Below are positions 9,956 to 44,313 of a DNA stretch of 64,000 bases, piece after piece. The translations under genes were made by a program, and so were the position numbers. Within the stretch, counting starts at the first letter, position 1; each line of letters opens with the position of its first letter. The notes under the pieces are model-generated. The model was not told the DNA's origin. It did not search any database and saw only the letters and a list, made by a program, of their open reading frames with translations. The DNA lies in contig NZ_CP029462.1 in NCBI RefSeq assembly GCF_003367905.1, forward strand, positions 62,001 through 126,000, read 5' to 3'. The DNA is from Megasphaera stantonii (GTDB lineage: Bacteria; Bacillota; Negativicutes; Veillonellales; Megasphaeraceae).

Positions 9956-9992
9956 CTTTTATTTGGAAATTTTATTGAAAAGGTATGATGAA

Positions 9993-10769
9993 ATGGCAAC
10001 GAAAACGAATAAATTAAAATTGTATGGCTTCAATAATCTGACCAAAACGCTGAGCTTCAACATATACGACATTTGTTATGCCCTCAGCGAAGAGTCGCGC
10101 CGCCAGTATATCGAATATATTGATGAACAATATAACGCAGAACGGCTGACGAATATTTTAAAAAATGTCTCGTCTATTATCGGCGCAAATATTTTGAATA
10201 TTGCCAGCCAGGATTACGATCCCCAGGGGGCCAGCGTGACCATCCTCATTTCGGAAGAGCCTGTCGAACCGGCCGACGCCGACGTAGTTTGTCATCTGGA
10301 TAAGAGCCATCTGACAGTTCATACGTATCCGGAAAGCCATCCCCAGAAGGGGATTATGACCTTCCGCGCCGATATTGACGTATCGACGTGCGGCCGTATT
10401 TCTCCTCTCAACGCGCTGAATTACCTGATTGACAATTTCGACTCCGACATCGTAACCCTCGACTACCATGTCCGCGGCTTTACCCGCGACGTGAGCGGCA
10501 AGAAGCTGTTCATCGATCACCGCATTAATTCCATCCAAAACTACATTTCCCAAAGTACGCGCAGCCGTTATAATATGATAGACGTCAACGTATATCAGGA
10601 AAATATCTTCCATACGAAAATGATGCTGAAGGATTTTGATTTGAACAACTATCTGTTCAACATGACTGCCGATCAGCTGACGGAACGGCAGCGCAATCAA
10701 ATCCGCAAGCTCGTATATCAGGAAATGCTGGAAATATTCAACGGCCACAACATGCCGACGATGCGTTAA
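9993..10769 (+). CDS. speD: S-adenosylmethionine decarboxylase proenzyme, E. coli type
   Basis: I place the start at ATG 9993 (258 residues; [15 protein letters not shown]), which aligns with E. coli SpeD; the TTG at 9963 lies upstream without a good ribosome site. It decarboxylates S-adenosylmethionine (SAM) to the aminopropyl donor for spermidine. The proenzyme self-cleaves at the Lys-Ser bond in [16 protein letters not shown], giving pyruvoyl Ser105. Other hallmarks are [64 protein letters not shown] and [13 protein letters not shown]. No spermidine synthase is adjacent. The E. coli-like class rather than the short Bacillus class is notable in a Firmicute. Confidence 0.97.
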
Positions 10770-10787: not shown

Positions 10788-10830
10788 AAAACTGCCTGTT
10801 GTCTTAAATTAAGACGGCAGGCAGTTTTTC
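10788..10830 (+). terminator. Rho-independent terminator after speD
   Basis: AAAACTGCCTG and CGGCAGGCAGTTTT flank an inner GTCTTAA/TTAAGAC stem and are followed by TTTTTCTTTTAT. Confidence 0.9.
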
Positions 10831-10898: not shown

Positions 10899-12503
10899 GT
10901 GAATATAGTACTGCAACTCCGCCGGCGAAGCGTCGACAGTATCCGCCGCTTTACGGTGCCGTTCCTCATTTCCATCTTATTGTTTGCCGATTTGGCCTAT
11001 CTGACTTGCTGGCCGTCGGACGAGAAATGGCCTGTCTATGGAGCCATATCTTTGTGTATTGCTGCTATGTTCTCTGTCTGGTGGCAGCTGGTATTGGAAG
11101 CGCGCCGGATCACAGGGACGAAGGCCTGGCTGTGGCAAGGCGCGTCCCTTGTCGTATGGGCTGGCTCGTACGGTACGTGGATGGCCGTACAGGACATGAC
11201 CTATATCATCTTATATGGCTCCGGTATATTTCTGGCCTTGACAGCCAGTATTCTGGCCTGGCTGACGTATTATGCCGGTGAAAGCGCCTTCAACCGCGTA
11301 TTCTGCGGCGCCCTGCAGGCCGTCGGTGTCGCCGTCGTCGCTGACATATCCCTGTCTATTTGCGCCATGGCTCTGCAGACGCTGCTTCAGCTGTCCTTAT
11401 CTTTTTCCAACTTGTACGCATTGATTTTCTATGCGTCGTTTTTGGTCGTCGGGTGGAACGTATTCTTGTCGTCTGTTCCCAAAGTGGGATGTCCGGCATT
11501 GCCGTCCAAGCCCTTCGGAAATGTCATGGCCTACGTCGTCGTGCCGGTCTACGGCGTATTACTGGCGATTCTGTACATATACATCGCCATGATTTTCTTT
11601 AAGGGAGAAATGCCTGTAGGGAAAATGAACTGGTTTGCTTCCATTGCGCTGCTGGTATACGCCTTTTGTTATTTGACCTGCAGCGGTTATGACAAGCATG
11701 CCTGGCTGCTGCGTTACCGCCGATGGGGCGGTTTGCTTCTCCTTCCTGTCGTAGCCGTACAGCTTTGGGGCGTGTATATTCGTCATGAAGCCTATGGATT
11801 GACAGAGCTGCGCTATTTGTCCATGGCCTGCACAGCCTTTGGTATTGCCGTGATTCCGGCGGCCCTGCGCCGTCTGTCCGGAACCTGGTTGTTTCTGTTG
11901 GCCGCGGGTATGACGCTCATCATTTCCGTAACGCCCCTAAATGTGCTGGACACGCCGTACCGCAGTCAGGAAAAGCGGCTATTGGCGATGATGGAAGAAA
12001 AGGGAATGCTTCAAAACGGCGTGGTCTCAGATGCCGCGGATTTATCTCACGAAGACAAAGAAGAACTATACAGCACGTACCGCTACGTGAAGAGCTATAC
12101 GGGCCAGAGGGACCCAGCTGTCGAAGCCGTTCTGCAGTCTCCAGTCATGGAGTCTCTCCGCTATGCCGGCCCCCATTACCGGTCGCGGTATTTCATCAAT
12201 GACAGTACAGCCGCGCCGGTATCCGGATACGCGACGATGTACGTCGTGGAAAGGACGGCCGGTAAAGACGGCATGATCACGGTTCAAACGCAGAGGGGAG
12301 ACGTAGCGATTTCCCTGCTGTCCTATGCCGAACAGCTGTGCCGGCAGTACGAAGGCGCCGGTCAGATGGCCAACCGAAATGTGGCGAATTTGTATCTCCT
12401 TCCCGACGATGGCCATTATCTCTTTATACGCACGATGAATGTCGATTTGGCCGACGATGTCGTTCAGAGCATTTCCATATCGGCTATCTTGTTGGAAAAA
12501 TAA
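10899..12503 (+). CDS. DUF4153 family multi-pass membrane protein
   Basis: 534 residues from GTG 10899 (AGAAAGGAG upstream). About eleven hydrophobic segments fill the first 350 residues (for example FLISILLFADLAYLTC, IAAMFSVWWQLVL, YIILYGSGIFLALTASILAWLTYY), and the remaining C-terminal domain (about residues 365-534) is soluble with short repeats of charged residues. Layout and length fit the DUF4153 family, whose function is unknown. It stands alone between a terminator and the aldolase gene. Confidence 0.75.
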   Translation: MNIVLQLRRRSVDSIRRFTVPFLISILLFADLAYLTCWPSDEKWPVYGAISLCIAAMFSVWWQLVLEARRITGTKAWLWQGASLVVWAGSYGTWMAVQDMTYIILYGSGIFLALTASILAWLTYYAGESAFNRVFCGALQAVGVAVVADISLSICAMALQTLLQLSLSFSNLYALIFYASFLVVGWNVFLSSVPKVGCPALPSKPFGNVMAYVVVPVYGVLLAILYIYIAMIFFKGEMPVGKMNWFASIALLVYAFCYLTCSGYDKHAWLLRYRRWGGLLLLPVVAVQLWGVYIRHEAYGLTELRYLSMACTAFGIAVIPAALRRLSGTWLFLLAAGMTLIISVTPLNVLDTPYRSQEKRLLAMMEEKGMLQNGVVSDAADLSHEDKEELYSTYRYVKSYTGQRDPAVEAVLQSPVMESLRYAGPHYRSRYFINDSTAAPVSGYATMYVVERTAGKDGMITVQTQRGDVAISLLSYAEQLCRQYEGAGQMANRNVANLYLLPDDGHYLFIRTMNVDLADDVVQSISISAILLEK

Positions 12504-12564
12504 AGTTGCCTCAGGCCGTAGTCATGGTATAGTATACATAGATGGACATGAAGGAGTGTTATAT

Positions 12565-13194
12565 ATGGATACGAAGAAAAAATTGTGTAAAATCGGTGAA
12601 AAAATGAAGGAAGCCGGCCTCGTCGCCGCCTGCGACGGCAATATCAGCTTCCGCAATCCCAATGGAACAATCGTCATCACGCCGTCGGGCCTTCCGAAGG
12701 GCGAATTGAAGCCGTCTCAGCTTCTGGTCATGGATATAAACGGCAAGGTGATAAAAGGAGAAGGCAAGCCGTCGTCGGAAACGCCTCTTCATTTAGAAAT
12801 CTATAAGGCTCGTCCCGATGTCAACGCCATTATCCATGCTCATCCCATCGTCGCTACCGCCGTAACCGTCGCCGGGCTGGCCTTTCCCAGCACCATTGTA
12901 ACCGAAGGCGCTATCGTCTTGGGGAAATCCGTGCCGACCGTGCCGTACGCTGCGCCGGGCAGCGCCGAATTGGCCACGGCCTGCGCCGAATACGCCAAGA
13001 AGGTCAACGTATTTCTCATGGAACGCCACGGCGCGACAGCTCTGGGTAAAGACCTGAAGGAAGCCCTGTACCGCATGGAAACGCTGGAGGCCGTTGCCAA
13101 AGTCTACCGGGCGTCGCTGGCCTTCGCCGTCAATTCCCGGGCTTTGCAGGATATCAGCCGTAGCCAGGAGCTGGCATCGTTTTTCCTGCGCTAG
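12565..13194 (+). CDS. Class II aldolase/adducin family protein (L-fuculose-phosphate aldolase-like)
   Basis: ATG 12565 is supported by AAGGAG at 12551-12556; the open frame extends 126 bp further up into the DUF4153 gene. 209 residues, normal for the family. Motifs: CDGNISFRN and ITPSGLPKG (phosphate binding), SSETPLHLEIY, IIHAHPIVATA with the two zinc-ligand histidines, and the third in MERHGATALG. Family members cleave ketose 1-phosphates (fuculose-1-P, rhamnulose-1-P, 5-methylthioribulose-1-P). No sugar operon is nearby, whereas mtnP-mtnA and speD lie in the same window, so methylthioribulose-1-phosphate aldolase (Ald2-like) is an attractive but unproven assignment. Confidence 0.85.
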   Translation: MDTKKKLCKIGEKMKEAGLVAACDGNISFRNPNGTIVITPSGLPKGELKPSQLLVMDINGKVIKGEGKPSSETPLHLEIYKARPDVNAIIHAHPIVATAVTVAGLAFPSTIVTEGAIVLGKSVPTVPYAAPGSAELATACAEYAKKVNVFLMERHGATALGKDLKEALYRMETLEAVAKVYRASLAFAVNSRALQDISRSQELASFFLR

Positions 13195-18624: not shown

Positions 18625-18768
18625 ATTTAACCATCAAGAGCTGTGGAGGGATTGGCCCGATGATGCAGCAGCAACCTTCAGTGAATGAAAGGTGCTAAAT
18701 CCAACAGTGTAGCGTACTGAAAGATGGGCTGATACATACCCCTCTTTTCAGAGGGGATTTTTTTTGAA
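18625..18768 (+). ncRNA. SAM-I (S-box) riboswitch with terminator
   Basis: The metK leader contains the S-box core: the P1 strand CCATC at 18631-18635 followed by AAGAG, then GGAGGGATTGGCCCGATGATGC with the kink-turn GATGA, GCAACC, then GGTGCTAAATCC, and the closing ACTGAAAGATGGG whose GATGG at 18723-18727 completes P1. A terminator hairpin CCCCTC/GAGGGG at 18739-18756 followed by nine T residues comes right after. Known SAM-I logic: SAM binding stabilises P1 and lets the terminator form, turning metK off. Positions are assigned by eye against the consensus. Confidence 0.93.
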
Positions 18769-18785
18769 CGCATAAGGAGGATATA

Positions 18786-19976
<1,191 letters not shown>

Positions 19977-31341: not shown

Positions 31342-31403
31342 GAAGTCTGTACTTGTATTTCTATCCCTTATGTGCTAAAATCATAGGTGGATATGAATAA
31401 TAG

Positions 31404-31600
31404 TCTTTGGGGCAAGGTGAGAAAGGGCAGCTTTCAATTCCTGACCGGCGGTATAGTCCGCTAGCCTGGCGTAAGCGGGGCTGAACCGATGCGATTTCGG
31501 TACCGACAGTATAGTCTGGATGGGAAAAGACGACATTTCGTTTATTTTTGTTGTGCGCAAAAGGCTATTGGGTTTCCATACCCGTAGCCTTTTTATTTTT
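31404..31600 (+). ncRNA. FMN riboswitch (RFN element) with terminator
   Basis: The leader of the rib operon carries the RFN consensus: CTTTGGGGCAAGGTGAG, then CCTGACCGGCGGTATAGTCC, GCTAGC, AACCGATGCGATTTCGGTACCGACAGTATAGTC and GGATGGGAAAAGACG (to about 31533). A terminator follows at 31559-31600 (AAAAGGCTA/TAGCCTTTT plus T run), before the ribD ribosome site. Known logic: FMN binding favours termination and reduces riboflavin synthesis. Boundaries are by eye. Confidence 0.93.
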
Positions 31601-34581: not shown

Positions 34582-35466
34582 ATGCATATTGAAGACCAGA
34601 TCGTCCATTATACATCAGACGAGTTAATTCGCGTTTCTATCGCCCAGACGCGCCGCATAACCGAAACGGCGCGGCAGCGGCATCATTTGTCGCCTGTGGC
34701 CTGCGCCGCCTTGGGCCGGGCCATGACGGGAGCGCTCCTCCTGGCCGGAGACTATAAAAATCATGAAGGCGTTTCCCTTAAATTTGCCGGCGACGGCCCA
34801 TTAGGAGCCGTTCACGTCGACGCCTTCGATTCCAATAAAGTACGGGGCTATATCGACAATCCCACAGTTGATTTGCCCCTCAAAGCAAACGGAAAATTAG
34901 ATGTAGGAGCCGCTGTAGGCCAGCACGGCCAGCTGACGGTAACGCGCTTTACGCCGGAGCAGATGACCTATACGAGCCAAGCCGACCTCGTATCCGGCGA
35001 AATTGCCGAAGATTTGGCTTATTACTTATACACGTCGGAGCAGATTCCCTCGACGATCAGCTTAGGCGTCCTCGTCGACCGGGACTATACGATTGCCGCG
35101 TCAGGCGGCTTTCTCGTCCAGGCGCTGCCGGGAGCGAAAGAAGAAGACTTAGCGCGGGTCGAGGCCAACATTACGCAGATCGGGCCGATTACGACGTATT
35201 TGAAGAATCATCCCGATGGAGAAGGGCTGATCGACATTATTTTAAGCGGCATGCATTTTAAAGAATTATTCCGCAAGCCTGCCTGGTGGCAGTGCACGTG
35301 CTCGCGCCAGCGCATTGAAAACGTCCTCCTGTCCCTGAGAGCCCAGGATAAGGAGGAACTGCTGCAGGACCCGCAGGTAGAGATGACCTGCCATTACTGC
35401 GGTGAAAAATACGTCATCAGCCACGACGAATTAGTTACTTTATTCGAAAACGCACATAAGGAGTGA
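34582..35466 (+). CDS. hslO: Hsp33 redox-regulated chaperone
   Basis: 294 residues. Hsp33 is a holdase switched on by oxidation of a zinc-bound cysteine centre. The N-terminal domain has VACAALGRAMTGALLLA and LKFAGDGPLGAVHVDA; the C-terminal zinc centre has CxC (WQCTCSRQR) and CxxC (MTCHYCGEKY). All four cysteines are present. It is the first gene of an operon: mtnP begins 4 bp after its stop. Pairing an oxidative-stress chaperone with SAM-nucleoside recycling is unusual. Confidence 0.96.
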   Translation: MHIEDQIVHYTSDELIRVSIAQTRRITETARQRHHLSPVACAALGRAMTGALLLAGDYKNHEGVSLKFAGDGPLGAVHVDAFDSNKVRGYIDNPTVDLPLKANGKLDVGAAVGQHGQLTVTRFTPEQMTYTSQADLVSGEIAEDLAYYLYTSEQIPSTISLGVLVDRDYTIAASGGFLVQALPGAKEEDLARVEANITQIGPITTYLKNHPDGEGLIDIILSGMHFKELFRKPAWWQCTCSRQRIENVLLSLRAQDKEELLQDPQVEMTCHYCGEKYVISHDELVTLFENAHKE

Positions 35467-35470
35467 TAGT

Positions 35471-36265
35471 ATGGGCTTAATTGCCATCATCGGCGGTACG
35501 GGCGTCTGCGATATCAAGATGCTGAAAAACGCCAAAGAGCATCACATGGACACCTTTTATGGTACGATCCATTATGTCCGCGGCACGTATGAGGGAAAAG
35601 AACTGATTTTCCTTCCCCGTCATGGTAAAACCCATTCCATACCGCCTCATCTGATCAACTACCGGGGCAACATGCTGGGCTTAAAGCGGTTAGGCGTTAC
35701 AGCCGTTATTTCGACGACGGCCGTCGGGTCCCTGAACCGCGACTTTAAGCCGAACGAATTTGTCCTGCCCGACCAGTTCCTCGATTTTACGAAGTCGCGC
35801 CATACGTCTTTCTTTGACGGCGGGGAAAACGGCGTCGTCCACGTCGATATGACCGAGCCGTACTGCCCGACCCTGCGCCGTACTCTCATGGCAGCGGCTG
35901 ACGAACTGGGAGGATACGCCCTGCACAACGGCGGCACCTACGTATGCACGGAAGGACCGCGGTTTGAGACGCCGGCGGAAATCAAGATGTACGAAACGCT
36001 GGGCGGCGACCTCGTCGGCATGACCAACGTGCCGGAAGTCTGCCTAGCCCGGGAAGCTGAAATCTGCTACGCTACGGTTTCCATGGTTACGAACTTCGCC
36101 GCCGGCATTTCTCCGTCCGCCCTGACTCATTCGGAAGTCGTAGACTGCATGGCGGAAAACTCCCTCCGCCTGCGTACCCTGATCATGAAAGCCGTCGAAC
36201 TGTACGGCGACGACGATTGCCTGTGCCGCCACGCCCTGCAGGAATACGGCGGCTTTACGGTGTAA
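35471..36265 (+). CDS. mtnP: S-methyl-5'-thioadenosine/thioinosine phosphorylase (MTAP/MTIP family)
   Basis: 264 residues of the trimeric purine phosphorylase family. Phosphate-binding GGTGVCDIKML and RHGKTHSIPPHLINYRGNM are at the N-terminus, ISTTAVGSLN and the family block YVCTEGPRFETPAEIKMYETLGGDLVGMTNVPEV follow. The purine-contact segment reads VTNFAAGIS: Asn208 and Ala210 stand where human MTAP has Asp220 and Asp222, which recognise the 6-amino group. This suggests a 6-oxopurine substrate (methylthioinosine), consistent with the deaminase gene mtaD in the same operon. Product: 5-methylthioribose 1-phosphate, the MtnA substrate made next door. Confidence 0.9.
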   Translation: MGLIAIIGGTGVCDIKMLKNAKEHHMDTFYGTIHYVRGTYEGKELIFLPRHGKTHSIPPHLINYRGNMLGLKRLGVTAVISTTAVGSLNRDFKPNEFVLPDQFLDFTKSRHTSFFDGGENGVVHVDMTEPYCPTLRRTLMAAADELGGYALHNGGTYVCTEGPRFETPAEIKMYETLGGDLVGMTNVPEVCLAREAEICYATVSMVTNFAAGISPSALTHSEVVDCMAENSLRLRTLIMKAVELYGDDDCLCRHALQEYGGFTV

Positions 36266-36266
36266 T

Positions 36267-37322
36267 ATGGATACGCTGCGCTGGCAGAACGGCCAGCTGG
36301 TCCTGCTGGATCAAACGAAGCTTCCCCTGGAAGAATCCTATATTACCTGTACAAAATGGCAGGACGTATACGACGCCATTTCCATCCTCGCCGTACGGGG
36401 CGCGCCGGCTATCGGCGTAGCCGCGGCTTACGGCTCGGTCCTGGCGGCCCGCATGCTGGCCGATACGCGCGACTATGAGTCGACTTCGGAGTTCCTTGCC
36501 GATTTCTCCGAATGCTGCCGCTGCCTCGACGAAGCCCGGCCTACGGCTGTCAACCTGCACTGGGCCCTGGAAACGATGAAAGCCGCGGCGTATGGAGCAG
36601 AGGAACAACCGGTCTCGTCTATTCTCCAGCTGCTGGAAGACAAGGCGAAATCCATGCAGGCCGAAGATGTGGCAATCAACACGGCCATGTCGGAATACGG
36701 CGCCGAAGAGTTAGCTGCGGCAGGTAAGCCTCTGACGATATTGACGCACTGCAACGCCGGGGCGCTGGCTACGGCCGGCGTCGGCACGGCCCTGGGCGTC
36801 ATCCGCTCCCTTCACAAGCGGGGGCTGATCCGCATGGTTTATGCCGATGAAACGCGGCCTCTCCTGCAGGGAGCGCGCCTCACCGTATCGGAGCTCATGG
36901 CCGACGGCATTCCCGTGACGCTCATTACGGACAACATGGCCGCCTGGGTCATGAAGACGAAGGGCGTCGACGCCGTCGTCGTCGGGGCCGACCGCATTAC
37001 GGCCAACGGAGACACGGCCAACAAAATCGGCACCTACGGCGTGTCGATTTTGGCGAAGGAACACGGCGTTCCCTTTTACGTCGCCGCCCCGATTTCGACC
37101 TTCGACCTGTCCCTGGACAAAGGGGAACAAATTCCCATTGAGGAGCGAAATCATGACGAAGTGCGTTCCATTCAGGGAGTACCGACGGCGCTGCCGGAAG
37201 CCGCCGTCTTTAATCCGGCCTTCGACGTAACGCCTCACGAGAATATCGCGGCTATTTTTACGGAAAAAGGGGTTATCCGCAAGCCTGACACTGCGCAGGT
37301 TCATGCATTTTTCAATATATAG
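36267..37322 (+). CDS. mtnA: 5-methylthioribose-1-phosphate isomerase
   Basis: 351 residues, eIF2B-alpha-like fold. It converts methylthioribose 1-phosphate to methylthioribulose 1-phosphate. Signatures: RGAPAIGVAAAYG, the catalytic cysteine in THCNAGALATAGVGTALGVI, the catalytic Asp in VGADRITANGDTANKIGTYG, and DETRPLLQGARLTVSEL. It starts 1 bp after mtnP. No mtnB, mtnC or mtnD follows, so the next step is open: see the class II aldolase at 12565. Confidence 0.96.
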   Translation: MDTLRWQNGQLVLLDQTKLPLEESYITCTKWQDVYDAISILAVRGAPAIGVAAAYGSVLAARMLADTRDYESTSEFLADFSECCRCLDEARPTAVNLHWALETMKAAAYGAEEQPVSSILQLLEDKAKSMQAEDVAINTAMSEYGAEELAAAGKPLTILTHCNAGALATAGVGTALGVIRSLHKRGLIRMVYADETRPLLQGARLTVSELMADGIPVTLITDNMAAWVMKTKGVDAVVVGADRITANGDTANKIGTYGVSILAKEHGVPFYVAAPISTFDLSLDKGEQIPIEERNHDEVRSIQGVPTALPEAAVFNPAFDVTPHENIAAIFTEKGVIRKPDTAQVHAFFNI

Positions 37323-37339
37323 AAAGGAAGTCTTATCGT

Positions 37340-38581
37340 ATGGAATCTATTATTCGCGACATCAAATTAGCTAAGAGCGGTCATGAAAAAATCAGCTGGG
37401 TTGACCACTACATGCCGGCGCTGAACGCTATCGGCGACGAATTAGCTAAAGAACAGACCTTTAAAGGCAAGACGGTCTGCGTCAGCGTCCATTTGGAAGC
37501 TAAAACGGCGTACTTGGCCGAAGTCCTGCACCGGGCCGGCGCCAACGTCATCGTCACGGGAAGCAATCCCTTGTCGACGCAGGACGACGTCGCCGCAGCT
37601 CTCGTAGAAGACGGCCTGACAGTCTATGCCTGGTATGGCGCGACAGAGGAAGAATATTTCAATTTCCTCAACAAATCTCTGGACCATCATCCGGATATCA
37701 TCATCGACGACGGCGGCGATCAGGTTCATCTGCTCCATACGACGCGGACTGACGCCCTGGAAAACCTCCTCGGCGGCACGGAAGAAACGACGACAGGCGT
37801 TAACCGCCTTCATGGCCTCGATAAAGCGGGCCAGCTGAAATTCTCCATGATTGCGGCAAACGATTCGTACTGCAAATACCTTTTCGATAACCGCTACGGC
37901 ACAGGCCAGTCCACGTGGGACGGCATCATGCGCACGACGAACCTCACCGTCGTCGGCAAGAAAGTCGTCATCGCCGGCTACGGTTGGTGCGGCCGCGGCT
38001 GCGCTATGCGGGCTAAGGGCCTGGGCGCTCACGTCATCGTTACGGAAGTAGACCCCATCAAGGCTATCGAAGCCGTATTCGACGGCTTTGAAGTGCTGCC
38101 GATGGCTGAAGCCGCCAAGGTAGGCGATATCTTCGTCACCCTGACAGGGGACAAGGACGTCATCCGCGGCGAACACATGAAAAATATGAAGGACGGCGTC
38201 ATCTTGGCCAACGCCGGTCATTTCGACGTAGAAATCAACCGTCCCGAACTGGAAGCATTGGCTGTGCGCCATTTTGAAGCCCGTCATAATATCGAAGGCT
38301 ACGAGCTGCCCGACGGACGCATTATCAATTTGCTGGCTGAAGGCCGCCTGGTAAACCTCGCTGCCGGCGACGGCCATCCGGCGGAAATCATGGACTTGTC
38401 CTTCGCCGTACAGGCATTGGCAGCTAAATATATTCTGGAACATCACGCTGAACTGGGAAATCACGTATACGTCCTGCCCCGCGATATCGACATGGAAATC
38501 GCTAAGATCAAGCTGCGCTCCATGGGCTACAGCATTGACACCCTGACGGAAGAACAGCGCAAATACTTAAATCTGGACTGA
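37340..38581 (+). CDS. ahcY: Adenosylhomocysteinase (S-adenosyl/S-inosyl-homocysteine hydrolase)
   Basis: 413 residues, the short form without the 40-residue insertion of proteobacterial enzymes. It hydrolyses S-adenosylhomocysteine (SAH) to homocysteine and the nucleoside, using bound NAD. NAD motif: VIAGYGWCGRGCAMRAKGLGAHVIVTEVDPIKA (about 213-245); substrate segments include EAKTAYLAEVL, IIDDGGDQVHLLH, and HFDVEINRPEL; the C-terminus LRSMGYSIDTLTEEQRKYL. Between mtnA (17 bp) and mtaD (20 bp). With a deaminase beside it, it might act on S-inosylhomocysteine, as reported for a methanogen enzyme. Confidence 0.95.
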   Translation: MESIIRDIKLAKSGHEKISWVDHYMPALNAIGDELAKEQTFKGKTVCVSVHLEAKTAYLAEVLHRAGANVIVTGSNPLSTQDDVAAALVEDGLTVYAWYGATEEEYFNFLNKSLDHHPDIIIDDGGDQVHLLHTTRTDALENLLGGTEETTTGVNRLHGLDKAGQLKFSMIAANDSYCKYLFDNRYGTGQSTWDGIMRTTNLTVVGKKVVIAGYGWCGRGCAMRAKGLGAHVIVTEVDPIKAIEAVFDGFEVLPMAEAAKVGDIFVTLTGDKDVIRGEHMKNMKDGVILANAGHFDVEINRPELEALAVRHFEARHNIEGYELPDGRIINLLAEGRLVNLAAGDGHPAEIMDLSFAVQALAAKYILEHHAELGNHVYVLPRDIDMEIAKIKLRSMGYSIDTLTEEQRKYLNLD

Positions 38582-38601
38582 TTGGGCAGGGAGGACAGCC
38601 G

Positions 38602-39882
38602 ATGAAAACGTTGATCAAAGACGTGGCCTTATACAAAGACCACGTCATTACAGAGCATCAGAACATTGAAGTGACGGACAGCGTCATTACGGGATTTCCG
38701 ACGTCGCCCCAGGCAGGGGATTACGATGAAGTACTCGAAGGCCGTTCCATGCTGGCCCTGCCTGGTTTCGTCAATACGCATACGCACATCGCCATGACGG
38801 TATTCCGCAGCTATGCCGACGACATGCAGCTTATGGACTGGCTGGAAAAGAAGATCTGGCCGGCAGAGGACAAGCTGGACAGCGACGTCGTATACGCCCA
38901 GACGATGCTAGGCATCGCCGAAATGATCCGCTGCGGCACGACGAGCTTCGCCGACATGTATTTCTTCATGGACGACGTAGCCAGAGCCGTAGAAGCCTCT
39001 GGCATCCGGGCCGCCCTGAGCCGCGGCTTGACGGGCGTGACGCCCAATGCCCAGCAGGCGCTGCAGGAAAATAAGGAATTTTACAAGACGTGGCATGGAA
39101 AGGCGGACGGACGCATTACGGTCATGTTCGGTCCCCATGCCCCTTATACGTGCCCGCCCGACTACATCCGCCAGGTCGTCGAAGCCGCCGGCGAATTGGG
39201 GGCGGAAGTGCACACGCATTTGTGCGAAACGAAGGGCGAAGTAGACAGTATTGTCAAACAGTACGGCAAATCGCCTATCGCCTTGATGGACGAACTTGGA
39301 CTGTTTGACTGCGGCTGTTTGGCGGCTCACTGCGTGTGGGTCGACGACGCTGACATGGATATTATGGTCAAGAAGGGCGTCCGCGTCGCTCACAATCCGG
39401 GCAGCAACTTAAAGCTGGCCAGCGGCATCGCTCCCGTACAGGACATGCTGAAAAAAGGCATCGTCGTAGGCCTCGGCACGGACGGAGCATCGAGCAACAA
39501 CAACCTGGACATTATGGAAGAAATGCATTTGGCCGCATTTATCCATAAGGCCCATACGCTGGACCCCTTAGTCGTCCCGGCTGAATCAGCTGTCAACATG
39601 ATGACCGAAGCCGGCGCAGCATGCCTCGGATATACGGATATCGGCAAATTAGAAACAGGGTATAAAGCCGATATTACCCTCGTCGACAGAGAAGGGCTCC
39701 ATTGGTATCCGAAAAACGATTCCATGTCCTTGCTGGCATACTCAGCCAACAGCTTTGACGTCGATACGGTCATGGTAAACGGTAAGGTGTTGCTGAAAGG
39801 CAAGGAATTTACGACACTGGATATTGAAAAAATCAAAGCGGAAGCAGAGCGGACCAAAGAAAAGCTCTTTTCCGCTTTATAA
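38602..39882 (+). CDS. mtaD: 5'-methylthioadenosine / S-adenosylhomocysteine deaminase
   Basis: 426 residues, amidohydrolase superfamily (TrzN/MtaD group). Metal ligands: HxH in FVNTHTHIAMT, later H in EVHTHLCETKGEVDSI, H in LAAHCVWVD and D in LGTDGASSNNNLD. The FRSYADDMQLMDWLEKKIWPAEDKL segment is typical of the MTA/SAH deaminases characterised in Thermotoga. It converts MTA, SAH or adenosine to the inosine derivatives. Its operon partners mtnP and ahcY could take those products. A strong terminator follows. Confidence 0.93.
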   Translation: MKTLIKDVALYKDHVITEHQNIEVTDSVITGFPTSPQAGDYDEVLEGRSMLALPGFVNTHTHIAMTVFRSYADDMQLMDWLEKKIWPAEDKLDSDVVYAQTMLGIAEMIRCGTTSFADMYFFMDDVARAVEASGIRAALSRGLTGVTPNAQQALQENKEFYKTWHGKADGRITVMFGPHAPYTCPPDYIRQVVEAAGELGAEVHTHLCETKGEVDSIVKQYGKSPIALMDELGLFDCGCLAAHCVWVDDADMDIMVKKGVRVAHNPGSNLKLASGIAPVQDMLKKGIVVGLGTDGASSNNNLDIMEEMHLAAFIHKAHTLDPLVVPAESAVNMMTEAGAACLGYTDIGKLETGYKADITLVDREGLHWYPKNDSMSLLAYSANSFDVDTVMVNGKVLLKGKEFTTLDIEKIKAEAERTKEKLFSAL

Positions 39883-42892: not shown

Positions 42893-43471
42893 ATGGCGAA
42901 ATACAGTTACGAATTTAAGAAGCAACTGGTATCAGAATACCTGGACAATCAGGGAAGCTATGCTTCCATTTCACAAAAACATGGCATGTTGGACAGTTGC
43001 CAGTTAAGAAAATGGGTTGCTGCTTACAAAAAAATGGGGGATGCCGGGTTAAAACGCTCTCGCTCCCGGAAAGAATACTCTTTCGAAGAAAAGCTTTCTG
43101 TGGTAGAGTCTTACTTAACAAGCGAACTCTCGTATCAGGAACTGGCTCTTCAAATGGGAATCAACAATCCGTCGCTACTTGTCAGATGGGTAAATGACTT
43201 TAAAATAGCTGGGCCGGATGCGTTAAGACCGCACAGGAAAGGCAGGAAGAAGACATTGAATACATCGCAAGCAAAAGAAACAGAAGCACAAGTTCAGCAT
43301 ACGGAGGTGGATACCCGTGCGGAGCACGTGAAGGAATTAGAGGATGAACTTCTTAAACTCCGTATAGAGAATGCCGTTTTAAAAGAACTGAGGAGACTGC
43401 GGTTAGAGGACGAAGCAAAGCGGAGAGGGTTGCAAACGTCATCTTCAGTCTCCGAGGACAATTCAAACTAA
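42893..43471 (+). CDS. IS3 family transposase OrfA (helix-turn-helix protein)
   Basis: 192 residues from ATG 42893 (GGGAGGTCAG upstream). Two tandem helix-turn-helix domains: KYSYEFKKQLVSEYLDNQGSYASISQKHGM (about 3-55) and YSFEEKLSVVESYLTSELSYQELALQMGI (about 60-110). A basic linker and a leucine-zipper-like C-terminus (KELEDELLKLRIENAVLKELRRL, about 143-166) follow, as in IS150 InsJ-type OrfA. It binds the inverted repeats and can be extended by frameshifting into OrfB. Confidence 0.93.
   Translation: MAKYSYEFKKQLVSEYLDNQGSYASISQKHGMLDSCQLRKWVAAYKKMGDAGLKRSRSRKEYSFEEKLSVVESYLTSELSYQELALQMGINNPSLLVRWVNDFKIAGPDALRPHRKGRKKTLNTSQAKETEAQVQHTEVDTRAEHVKELEDELLKLRIENAVLKELRRLRLEDEAKRRGLQTSSSVSEDNSN
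43378..43384 (+). other. Candidate -1 programmed frameshift heptamer
   Basis: In the orfA frame the sequence reads T TTA AAA, an X-XXY-YYZ heptamer, in codons for Val-Leu-Lys just before the leucine zipper ends. The -1 frame is open from here to the end of orfB. This fits IS3 biology, but A-AAA-AAG is the usual site in this family and I see no clear stimulatory structure. Confidence 0.45.
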
Positions 43472-44313
43472 AAGATCTTCTCTCCTACACCCATTTGCCG
43501 AAAGCCACCTACATGTACTGGCAGAAACGCATGGGCCGCGAACATCCGGACAAAGAAATAGAAGATACCATACAGGAACTTTGCAAACAGCATACCACCT
43601 ATGGCTATCGGCGAATCACGGGTGAGCTTACCAATCAGGGATGGCGCGTGAACAAGAAGAAAGCACAGCGTATCATGCAAAAGCTGAGCTTTCAGGTCAC
43701 TTGTTTTACGCGCAAGAGCCGCAGATACAGCTCTTACAAAGGGAAGGTGGGAACCATCGCTCCCAATAGAATACGCCGTCGCTTTCACACGACGGTTCCC
43801 CATCAGAAAATCACAACAGATACGACAGAATTTAAATACTATGAATTGGATGCCCAGGGGCATCTGACGCAGCATAAGCTGTATCTGGATCCCTTTCTGG
43901 ATATGTTCAATGGAGAAATCCTCAGCTATAGAATAGGGAACCGTCCTTCTGCTGAAAATATATTAGCAGCACAGGCAGAAGCCATCGACATCACCGCGGA
44001 TTGCCCGTATCGCAGAACCTTCCATTCCGATCAGGGTTGGGCGTACCAAATGAAGGCATACGTCCGCAAGCTCAAGCAAGAACGGATTTTTCAAAGCATG
44101 TCCCGGAAAGGCAACTGTCTGGATAATGCGGTGATGGAGAACTTCTTCGGCTTACTGAAACAGGAAATGTACTACGGCGTCGTGTATTATAGCTACGAAG
44201 AATTGAAATCAGCCATCGAACAGTATATCAAGTACTATAACGAACAACGAATCAAAGAAAAACTAGGCTGGAAGAGTCCTGTCCAATACAGGCGGTCTCT
44301 ATCCGCTGCATAA
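43384..44313 (+). CDS. IS3 family transposase OrfB (DDE integrase domain)
   Basis: The open -1 frame is listed from the candidate slip site; the first possible independent starts are TTG 43495 or ATG 43513. Residues encoded before 43495 (VIFSLRGQFKLKDLLSYTH) match the normal OrfB N-terminal HTH_21-like region, so translation by frameshifting from orfA is more likely than independent initiation. The catalytic core has the DDE triad in TTDTTEFKYY, FHSDQGWAYQ and NAVMENFFGLLK, with the terminal YNEQRIKEKLGWKSPVQYR signature. It cuts and joins the element's ends. Confidence 0.92.
   Translation, partial: RTEETAVRGRSKAERVANVIFSLRGQFKLKDLLSYTHLPKATYMYWQKRMGREHPDKEIEDTIQELCKQHTTYGYRRITGELTNQGWRVNKKKAQRIMQKLSFQVTCFTRKSRRYSSYKGKVGTIAPNRIRRRFHTTVPHQKITTDTTEFKYYELDAQGHLTQHKLYLDPFLDMFNGEILSYRIGNRPSAENILAAQAEAIDITADCPYRRTFHSDQGWAYQMKAYVRKLKQERIFQSMSRKGNCLDNAVMENFFGLLKQEMYYGVVYYSYEELKSAIEQYIKYYNEQRIKEKLGWKSPVQYRRSLSAA

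Follow-up and report, generated by a model that had tools for sequence, protein, structure and literature searches.

A class II aldolase near speD as a candidate for the third step of an oxygen-independent DHAP shunt in Megasphaera

Which substrate is split by the class II aldolase encoded near speD in Megasphaera stantonii? The genus is anaerobic. SpeD catalyses the first step towards spermidine, and spermidine synthesis yields MTA. An initial annotation proposed that the aldolase completes an oxygen-independent DHAP shunt for this product. We focused on a window of 64,000 nucleotides, positions 62001-126000 of the M. stantonii genome (a single contig of 2,652,760 bases, 99.95% complete). The main features, in window coordinates, are as follows.

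9990-10769, + strand: speD, S-adenosylmethionine decarboxylase (438 bits, cut-off 255.8; longest open reading frame 9963-10769)
10788-10828, + strand: terminator-like hairpin just 3' of speD (19 pairs, T-rich tail)
10899-12503, + strand: gene for a DUF4153 membrane protein, between speD and the aldolase gene
12506-12533, + strand: promoter-like site before the aldolase gene (9 of 12; weak, 7 such sites being found against 4.6 expected)
12565-13194, + strand: class II aldolase gene, 209 amino acids, candidate 5-methylthioribulose-1-phosphate / 5-deoxyribulose-1-phosphate aldolase
35471-36265, + strand: mtnP (296 bits on the MTAP model, cut-off 274.85; also 253.6 bits on the MTI-phosphorylase model, cut-off 223)
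36267-37322, + strand: mtnA, methylthioribose-1-phosphate isomerase (440 bits, cut-off 279)
37340-38581, + strand: ahcY, adenosylhomocysteinase (672 bits, cut-off 275)
38602-39882, + strand: amidohydrolase resembling MTA/SAH/5'-deoxyadenosine deaminases (no cut-off passed among the 25 models listed)

The aldolase gene sits in an open reading frame spanning 12439-13194 (+). The ATG at 12565 is likely to be its start, because 10 family proteins can all begin at the same Met-Asp (alignment A2, in which the start codons of several proteins were picked by hand). A single Pfam domain, Aldolase_II, makes up the protein (184 bits, cut-off 22.2). As the initial annotation claimed, the zinc-site motifs are in place; residues E72, H76, H91, H93 and H155 are invariant in an alignment of 55 sequences. 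The three metal-binding His and the catalytic Glu are all present, as is the class II aldolase fold in a predicted model. The AlphaFold model has a mean pLDDT of 95.5. Its best PDB match is DrdA (6btg/6btd; Z 27.9, rmsd 1.7, 187 aligned residues, 33% identity), although Bacteroides FucA, YgbL and others come within 1 Z and count as ties. Of 32 NCBIfam models matched, the 25 listed all scored below their cut-offs. The nearest among them include fuculose-phosphate aldolases and a ribulose-1-phosphate aldolase. Scores were 106 bits against a cut-off of 400 for the fucA model TIGR01086, and 64 bits against 170 for the RhaD model NF002963.

In line with the initial annotation, both upstream steps of the DHAP shunt, MtnP and MtnA, are encoded in the genome; each passes its curated cut-off. 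The genes form part of an hslO-mtnP-mtnA-ahcY-deaminase cluster (34582-39882). Since mtnP passes models for both MTA and MTI phosphorylases, and a deaminase-like gene ends the operon, MTA may be deaminated before MtnP acts. An aminopropyltransferase homolog (PF01564) is found at position 1986277 of the genome. By eye, two open reading frames downstream of the deaminase gene (42893-44313) resemble an IS3-type transposase pair. An FMN riboswitch (31399-31535) precedes apparent riboflavin genes (31548 onward, by eye).

Competing routes were sought in the whole genome. PF00596 matched two proteins, the speD-region aldolase and AraD. The latter scored 391 bits on an AraD subfamily model (cut-off 257), and the sugar-kinase-like open reading frame preceding its gene was read as araB. 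The PF00596 search returned no mtnB and no separate FucA or RhaD of this family. There was also no match to PF03079 (acireductone dioxygenase, ARD/MtnD), PF02952 (fucose isomerase, FucI) or PF06134 (rhamnose isomerase, RhaA). The initial annotation had noted that mtnB and mtnD are not in the mtn operon, and the genome check that it proposed, for these genes and for fucose or rhamnose pathways, turned up none of the families searched. It had also described the aldolase as free of sugar-catabolism neighbours. Consistent with this, no sugar kinase or isomerase was recognised beside the gene in M. stantonii or 11 relatives by homology to genes of the window and inspection by eye.

We lean slightly towards an aldolase for 5-methylthioribulose-1-phosphate and/or 5-deoxyribulose-1-phosphate. 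This assignment follows from elimination and partial gene context; no sequence feature proves it. Its observed basis is the mtn and speD genes, the predicted fold, the active-site residues and the lack of matches for the competing routes searched. Briefly, SpeD and the aminopropyltransferase would generate MTA, and radical-SAM enzymes would generate 5'-deoxyadenosine. MtnP, perhaps after the neighbouring deaminase, would produce the 1-phosphate. MtnA would isomerise this to 5-methylthioribulose-1-phosphate and/or 5-deoxyribulose-1-phosphate. The metal-dependent aldolase would split the product into dihydroxyacetone phosphate and either (methylthio)acetaldehyde or acetaldehyde. Finally, the aldehyde would presumably be reduced by an alcohol dehydrogenase. 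We infer the substrate, the flux and everything that follows cleavage. The whole would constitute an oxygen-independent, MtnP-type DHAP shunt with its aldolase locus apart from mtnP-mtnA.

A variant of the DHAP shunt that uses MtnP is described in PMC10986504, as is what MtnA and Ald2 do in the pathway; further background is found in PMC6302742 and PMC12632272. M. stantonii resembles this variant in having MtnP and MtnA, a candidate class II aldolase for the third step and no mtnB or mtnD found. No report of a DHAP shunt in Megasphaera emerged from a literature search for which most subscription papers were out of reach. If our reading is correct, Megasphaera needs no oxygen to remove MTA and 5'-deoxyadenosine, using a split-locus DHAP shunt, and an uncharacterised aldolase clade is added to that pathway. 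The enzyme is likely to be a new member of a known pathway type rather than an established Ald2.

The claim that the aldolase lies close to speD needs qualification. In M. stantonii, the DUF4153 gene and the terminator-like hairpin intervene; the hairpin comes from a purely consensus-based scan that found 5 in the region against 3.7 expected from shuffles. The DUF4153 gene occupies this position in M. stantonii and one relative (G013, locus L056), the two proteins being 36% identical. Conversely, nine same-genus relatives have an ortholog, and in seven of them the aldolase gene is directly downstream of speD. Computed from coordinates, taking the first aligned residue as the aldolase start, the intervening gaps measure 12, 15, 13, 12, 12 and 27 bp in six relatives and 136 bp in the seventh. 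Gaps of 12-27 bp make co-transcription of the two genes likely in the six. The aldolase gene is located elsewhere in the sister genus and in G016, a genome that gave no speD match. The speD-aldolase region is syntenic across about 17 kb in relatives. Hence, adjacency to speD represents one inherited arrangement, not many independent ones, and is weak as independent evidence. An Rfam search gave no match near speD, the aldolase gene or mtnP. Elsewhere in the window, a SAM riboswitch (18628-18730, +) lies upstream of an open reading frame (18786-19976) that is a putative metK.

The aldolase gene is 22 kb from mtnP-mtnA in M. stantonii and outside the mtn operon. Across its own family the distance is 20-450 kb where one contig holds both. 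Similarly, the aldolase flanks of all 11 relatives that have an ortholog are free of mtnA and mtnP (the G024 assembly apparently lacks the mtn operon).

To place these observations in the order (Veillonellales), we used a sample of 61 genomes, of which 53 were rated good. Aldolase orthologs (60-69% identity, E <= 1e-10) occur in M. stantonii itself, 9 of 14 same-genus relatives and both sister-genus genomes. Four further matches from the rest of the order, at 31-39% identity, look like AraD. By comparison, mtnA and mtnP are each present in 58 of 61 genomes and in all 53 good ones, speD in 59 and PF01564 in 60 of the 61. The genomes missing mtnA or mtnP are G024, G025 and G007 (75% complete). 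True loss of mtnP-mtnA was considered for G024 and G025 and is unlikely. Both cases look like assembly gaps, since a G025 contig begins with ahcY, and G024 (83% complete) is missing ahcY as well. The hslO-mtnP-mtnA-ahcY-deaminase cluster recurs order-wide. Among 20 loci (L128-L147), hslO was called in 20, mtnP in 18, mtnA in 19, ahcY in 17 and the deaminase gene in 19, with automatic calling of open reading frames overlooking some genes. True exceptions are six genomes of one genus (g11), where mtnP is far from mtnA. By eye, the 20 clusters hold no further conserved gene that might encode the next step. Any PF00596 match was found in 20 of 61 genomes (15 of the good ones). The other 38 of 53 good genomes carry mtnP-mtnA and no match for a class II aldolase or MtnB. 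Hence, the mtn module does not need a class II aldolase. Most of this order parallels cyanobacterial strains described in PMC8102628, whose annotations include mtnP and mtnA but lack an Ald2 homolog.

Two genomes bear on which nucleoside matters. G016 combines the aldolase with mtnP and mtnA and has no speD match; G005 has mtnP and mtnA with neither a speD nor a PF01564 match. This gene content hints that 5'-deoxyadenosine alone can keep the mtn module. A narrower form of our reading is therefore a tentative possibility: the aldolase would serve mainly the 5'-deoxyadenosine of radical-SAM enzymes, not MTA, and its proximity to speD would be incidental. What likelihood we allow it is a share of that given to the broader reading, and the two overlap. 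Activity of Bacillus thuringiensis DrdA on 5-deoxyribulose-1-phosphate, reported in PMC6079011 together with gene clusters in six phyla, fits this narrower form. However, speD is directly 5' of the aldolase gene in seven relatives and G016 keeps an aminopropyltransferase homolog. In addition, the pathway enzymes are described as accepting both substrates in PMC10986504.

The initial annotation had suggested placing the protein relative to Ald2 and FucA. We built two trees, of 121 rows and 96 rows. Six near-duplicates were dropped before the first. For the second, 28 rows were dropped (near-duplicates and long branches) and E. coli FucA was represented by the K-12 sequence instead of a mutant fragment; its bootstrap was not fully settled (correlation 0.989) and R. 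rubrum Ald2 was not among its rows. The Megasphaera aldolases form one clade in both trees (100/100 in the 96-row tree) on a long stem of about 1.0. This clade lies inside an 87-row group that a 99/100 branch parts from E. coli Ald2, DrdA and two FucAs. An MtnB reference also falls inside the group, on a very long branch whose placement is not to be trusted. The Megasphaera clade has no supported sister in either tree, and the nearest group differs between them. Phylogenetic assignment of the substrate was consequently dropped as evidence either way.

The check also failed to discriminate for a second reason. Ald2 of E. coli S88, from an mtnK-mtnA-aldolase operon, is sister to E. coli K-12 FucA (58% identity, 100/99), and DrdA is sister to Streptococcus pneumoniae FucA (54% identity, 100/95). 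The Megasphaera aldolase forms no clade with these two characterised enzymes, and the two do not pair with one another. Since each instead pairs with a different FucA, the sequences suggest that DHAP-shunt aldolases arose more than once.

Residue comparisons were made with the same enzymes. FucA Y113 is known from PDB titles as a mutated residue. In a comparison by sequence alignment only, DrdA, two FucAs and E. coli Ald2 have Tyr in the corresponding column; none is found in the Megasphaera aldolase or aligned members of its clade, mtnA-linked ones included. Two of the latter, L269 and Pusillibacter faecalis, have a Tyr one column away, so the comparison may be off by one. Glu114 is nearly invariant. 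Since it is common to mtnA-linked and microcompartment-linked members, it is no guide to substrate. An early equation of Glu114 with a catalytic Glu in MtnB was abandoned.

Gene context was then compared outside the family. Across the phylum, 275 of 398 genomes have an aldolase homolog (E <= 1e-22), up to 44% identical outside the genus. The M. stantonii mtn operon plus an aldolase gene, in the order mtnP-mtnA-ahcY-aldolase-mtaD, occurs in L199, L207 and L209, whose aldolases are 40-43% identical to that of M. stantonii (blastp). Three loci (L180, L185, L202) have mtnA-aldolase-mtnP-ahcY, and mtnA-aldolase pairs occur in L201, L210 and L213. The aldolases of L199, L207 and L209 fall outside the 87-row group holding the Megasphaera clade (branch 99/100). 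Hence, the mtnP-mtnA-ahcY-aldolase-mtaD operon argues by analogy, not descent.

We examined 40 phylum loci by tblastn within 7 kb; these were chosen among about the first 65 matches listed, are not a strict top 40 and include two from G429. Nine had mtnA or mtnP, 11 microcompartment genes, 7 an FGGY-type kinase only (two of these calls rest on 22% identity) and 13 none of these. A scan of named records used two short patterns from Megasphaera proteins, and so gave a biased sample with several short contigs. Among its best 80 of 113 loci, 9 came from the genus or sister genus and 71 from outside. Of the latter, 31 had mtnA or mtnP within 7 kb, mostly adjoining, 3 had microcompartment genes and 37 had neither.

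These contexts bear on a second alternative, which we regard as unlikely: a class II aldolase that splits a different ketose-1-phosphate, such as fuculose-, rhamnulose- or ribulose-1-phosphate, fed by an unrecognised kinase or an environmental sugar and unrelated to MTA. The 87-row group mixes microcompartment-linked (8), FGGY-linked (6) and mtn-linked (26) rows, and microcompartment or FGGY-kinase neighbours outnumber mtn neighbours at the phylum loci (18/40 versus 9/40). The sub-cut-off NCBIfam matches to fuculose- and ribulose-phosphate aldolases point the same way. Of 12 aldolase-bearing genomes, 4 (G019, G022, G023 and G024) also have a fucose isomerase homolog; in the other 8, none scored above the cut-off. 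Against this stand the absence of FucI and RhaA matches from the M. stantonii genome and of sugar kinase or isomerase neighbours recognised by eye or by homology to genes of the window in all 12 genomes. Moreover, G019 has the aldolase plus a separate rhaD beside rhaA, and G023 looks alike by eye. It is improbable that the protein instead shares only the fold and works as an epimerase, a decarboxylase or a dehydratase, such as a divergent MtnB, for although the superfamily includes 4-epimerases, decarboxylases and MtnB, the score on the MtnB model TIGR03328 (101 bits, residues 7-101 only) is below its cut-off of 137.05, the mtnD that an MtnB route calls for has no match, and the top fold match is an aldolase, albeit tied with YgbL, a putative aldolase/epimerase/decarboxylase.

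How does the preferred enzyme, an aldolase for 5-methylthioribulose-1-phosphate and/or 5-deoxyribulose-1-phosphate, compare with known systems? Unlike Ald2 of the DHAP shunt, its gene is not clustered with mtnA, and it lies outside the branch of E. coli S88 Ald2 and DrdA and lacks their Tyr. DrdA shares the fold and the same metal and Glu residues; however, identity is 33% in the structural alignment and DrdA itself groups with a FucA. The mtnA-linked aldolases of Chloroflexota, Oscillospiraceae and Aneurinibacillus belong to the same large clade, have Glu at about residue 114 and have the same proposed role. They are found near mtnA, whereas the Megasphaera clade sits at speD on its own stem. 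An aldolase on Pusillibacter faecalis plasmid pMM59_01 is near mtnA, an ABC transporter and a nucleoside phosphorylase. Finally, L-fuculose-1-phosphate aldolase FucA shares the fold and the metal and catalytic residues, but M. stantonii has no fucose isomerase match and the protein is below the cut-off of each FucA model listed. The proposal that this aldolase completes a DHAP shunt is partly supported, and the searches made turned up none of the findings that the initial annotation had named as refuting it. The proposal draws on the gene inventory and the speD link in relatives; the position outside the mtn operon, the unhelpful tree placement, the good genomes with mtnP-mtnA and no aldolase, and G016 without speD count against it.

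Some Megasphaera relatives lack the gene. There is no aldolase 3' of speD in G015, G020, G021 and G026, nor in G025 (78% complete; locus L307), which has no PF00596 match. The first four carry a RhaD-family protein (L295-L298, in G020, G021, G026 and G015); the two scanned scored 289 and 291 bits (cut-off 170). It is suggestive, if weak, that this orphan RhaD replaces the speD-linked aldolase in 4 of 4 genomes. The four form one clade (100/99), so the swap is a single event and correspondingly weak evidence.

Across the order, mtnP and mtnA are near-universal, usually in an mtnP-mtnA-ahcY-deaminase operon, and the step after MtnA may vary. Neither a class II aldolase nor a dehydratase was matched in most genomes. 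In Megasphaera the aldolase is speD-linked and its clade uncharacterised, except that one subclade has in its place an orphan of the RhaD family next to a metQ-type gene. It is a doubtful but conceivable generalisation that different class II aldolases were enlisted on several occasions for the third step of deoxynucleoside salvage, and that other members of the order rely on an unknown enzyme or excrete what is of no use to them. At L295-L298, the RhaD-family gene is divergent from the adjoining metQ-type gene, and no rhamnose gene was recognised beside it. SAM riboswitches at these loci are on the strand of the metQ-type gene, not that of the orphan rhaD. An ECF transporter with a T-box adjoins in three of the four (L296-L298).
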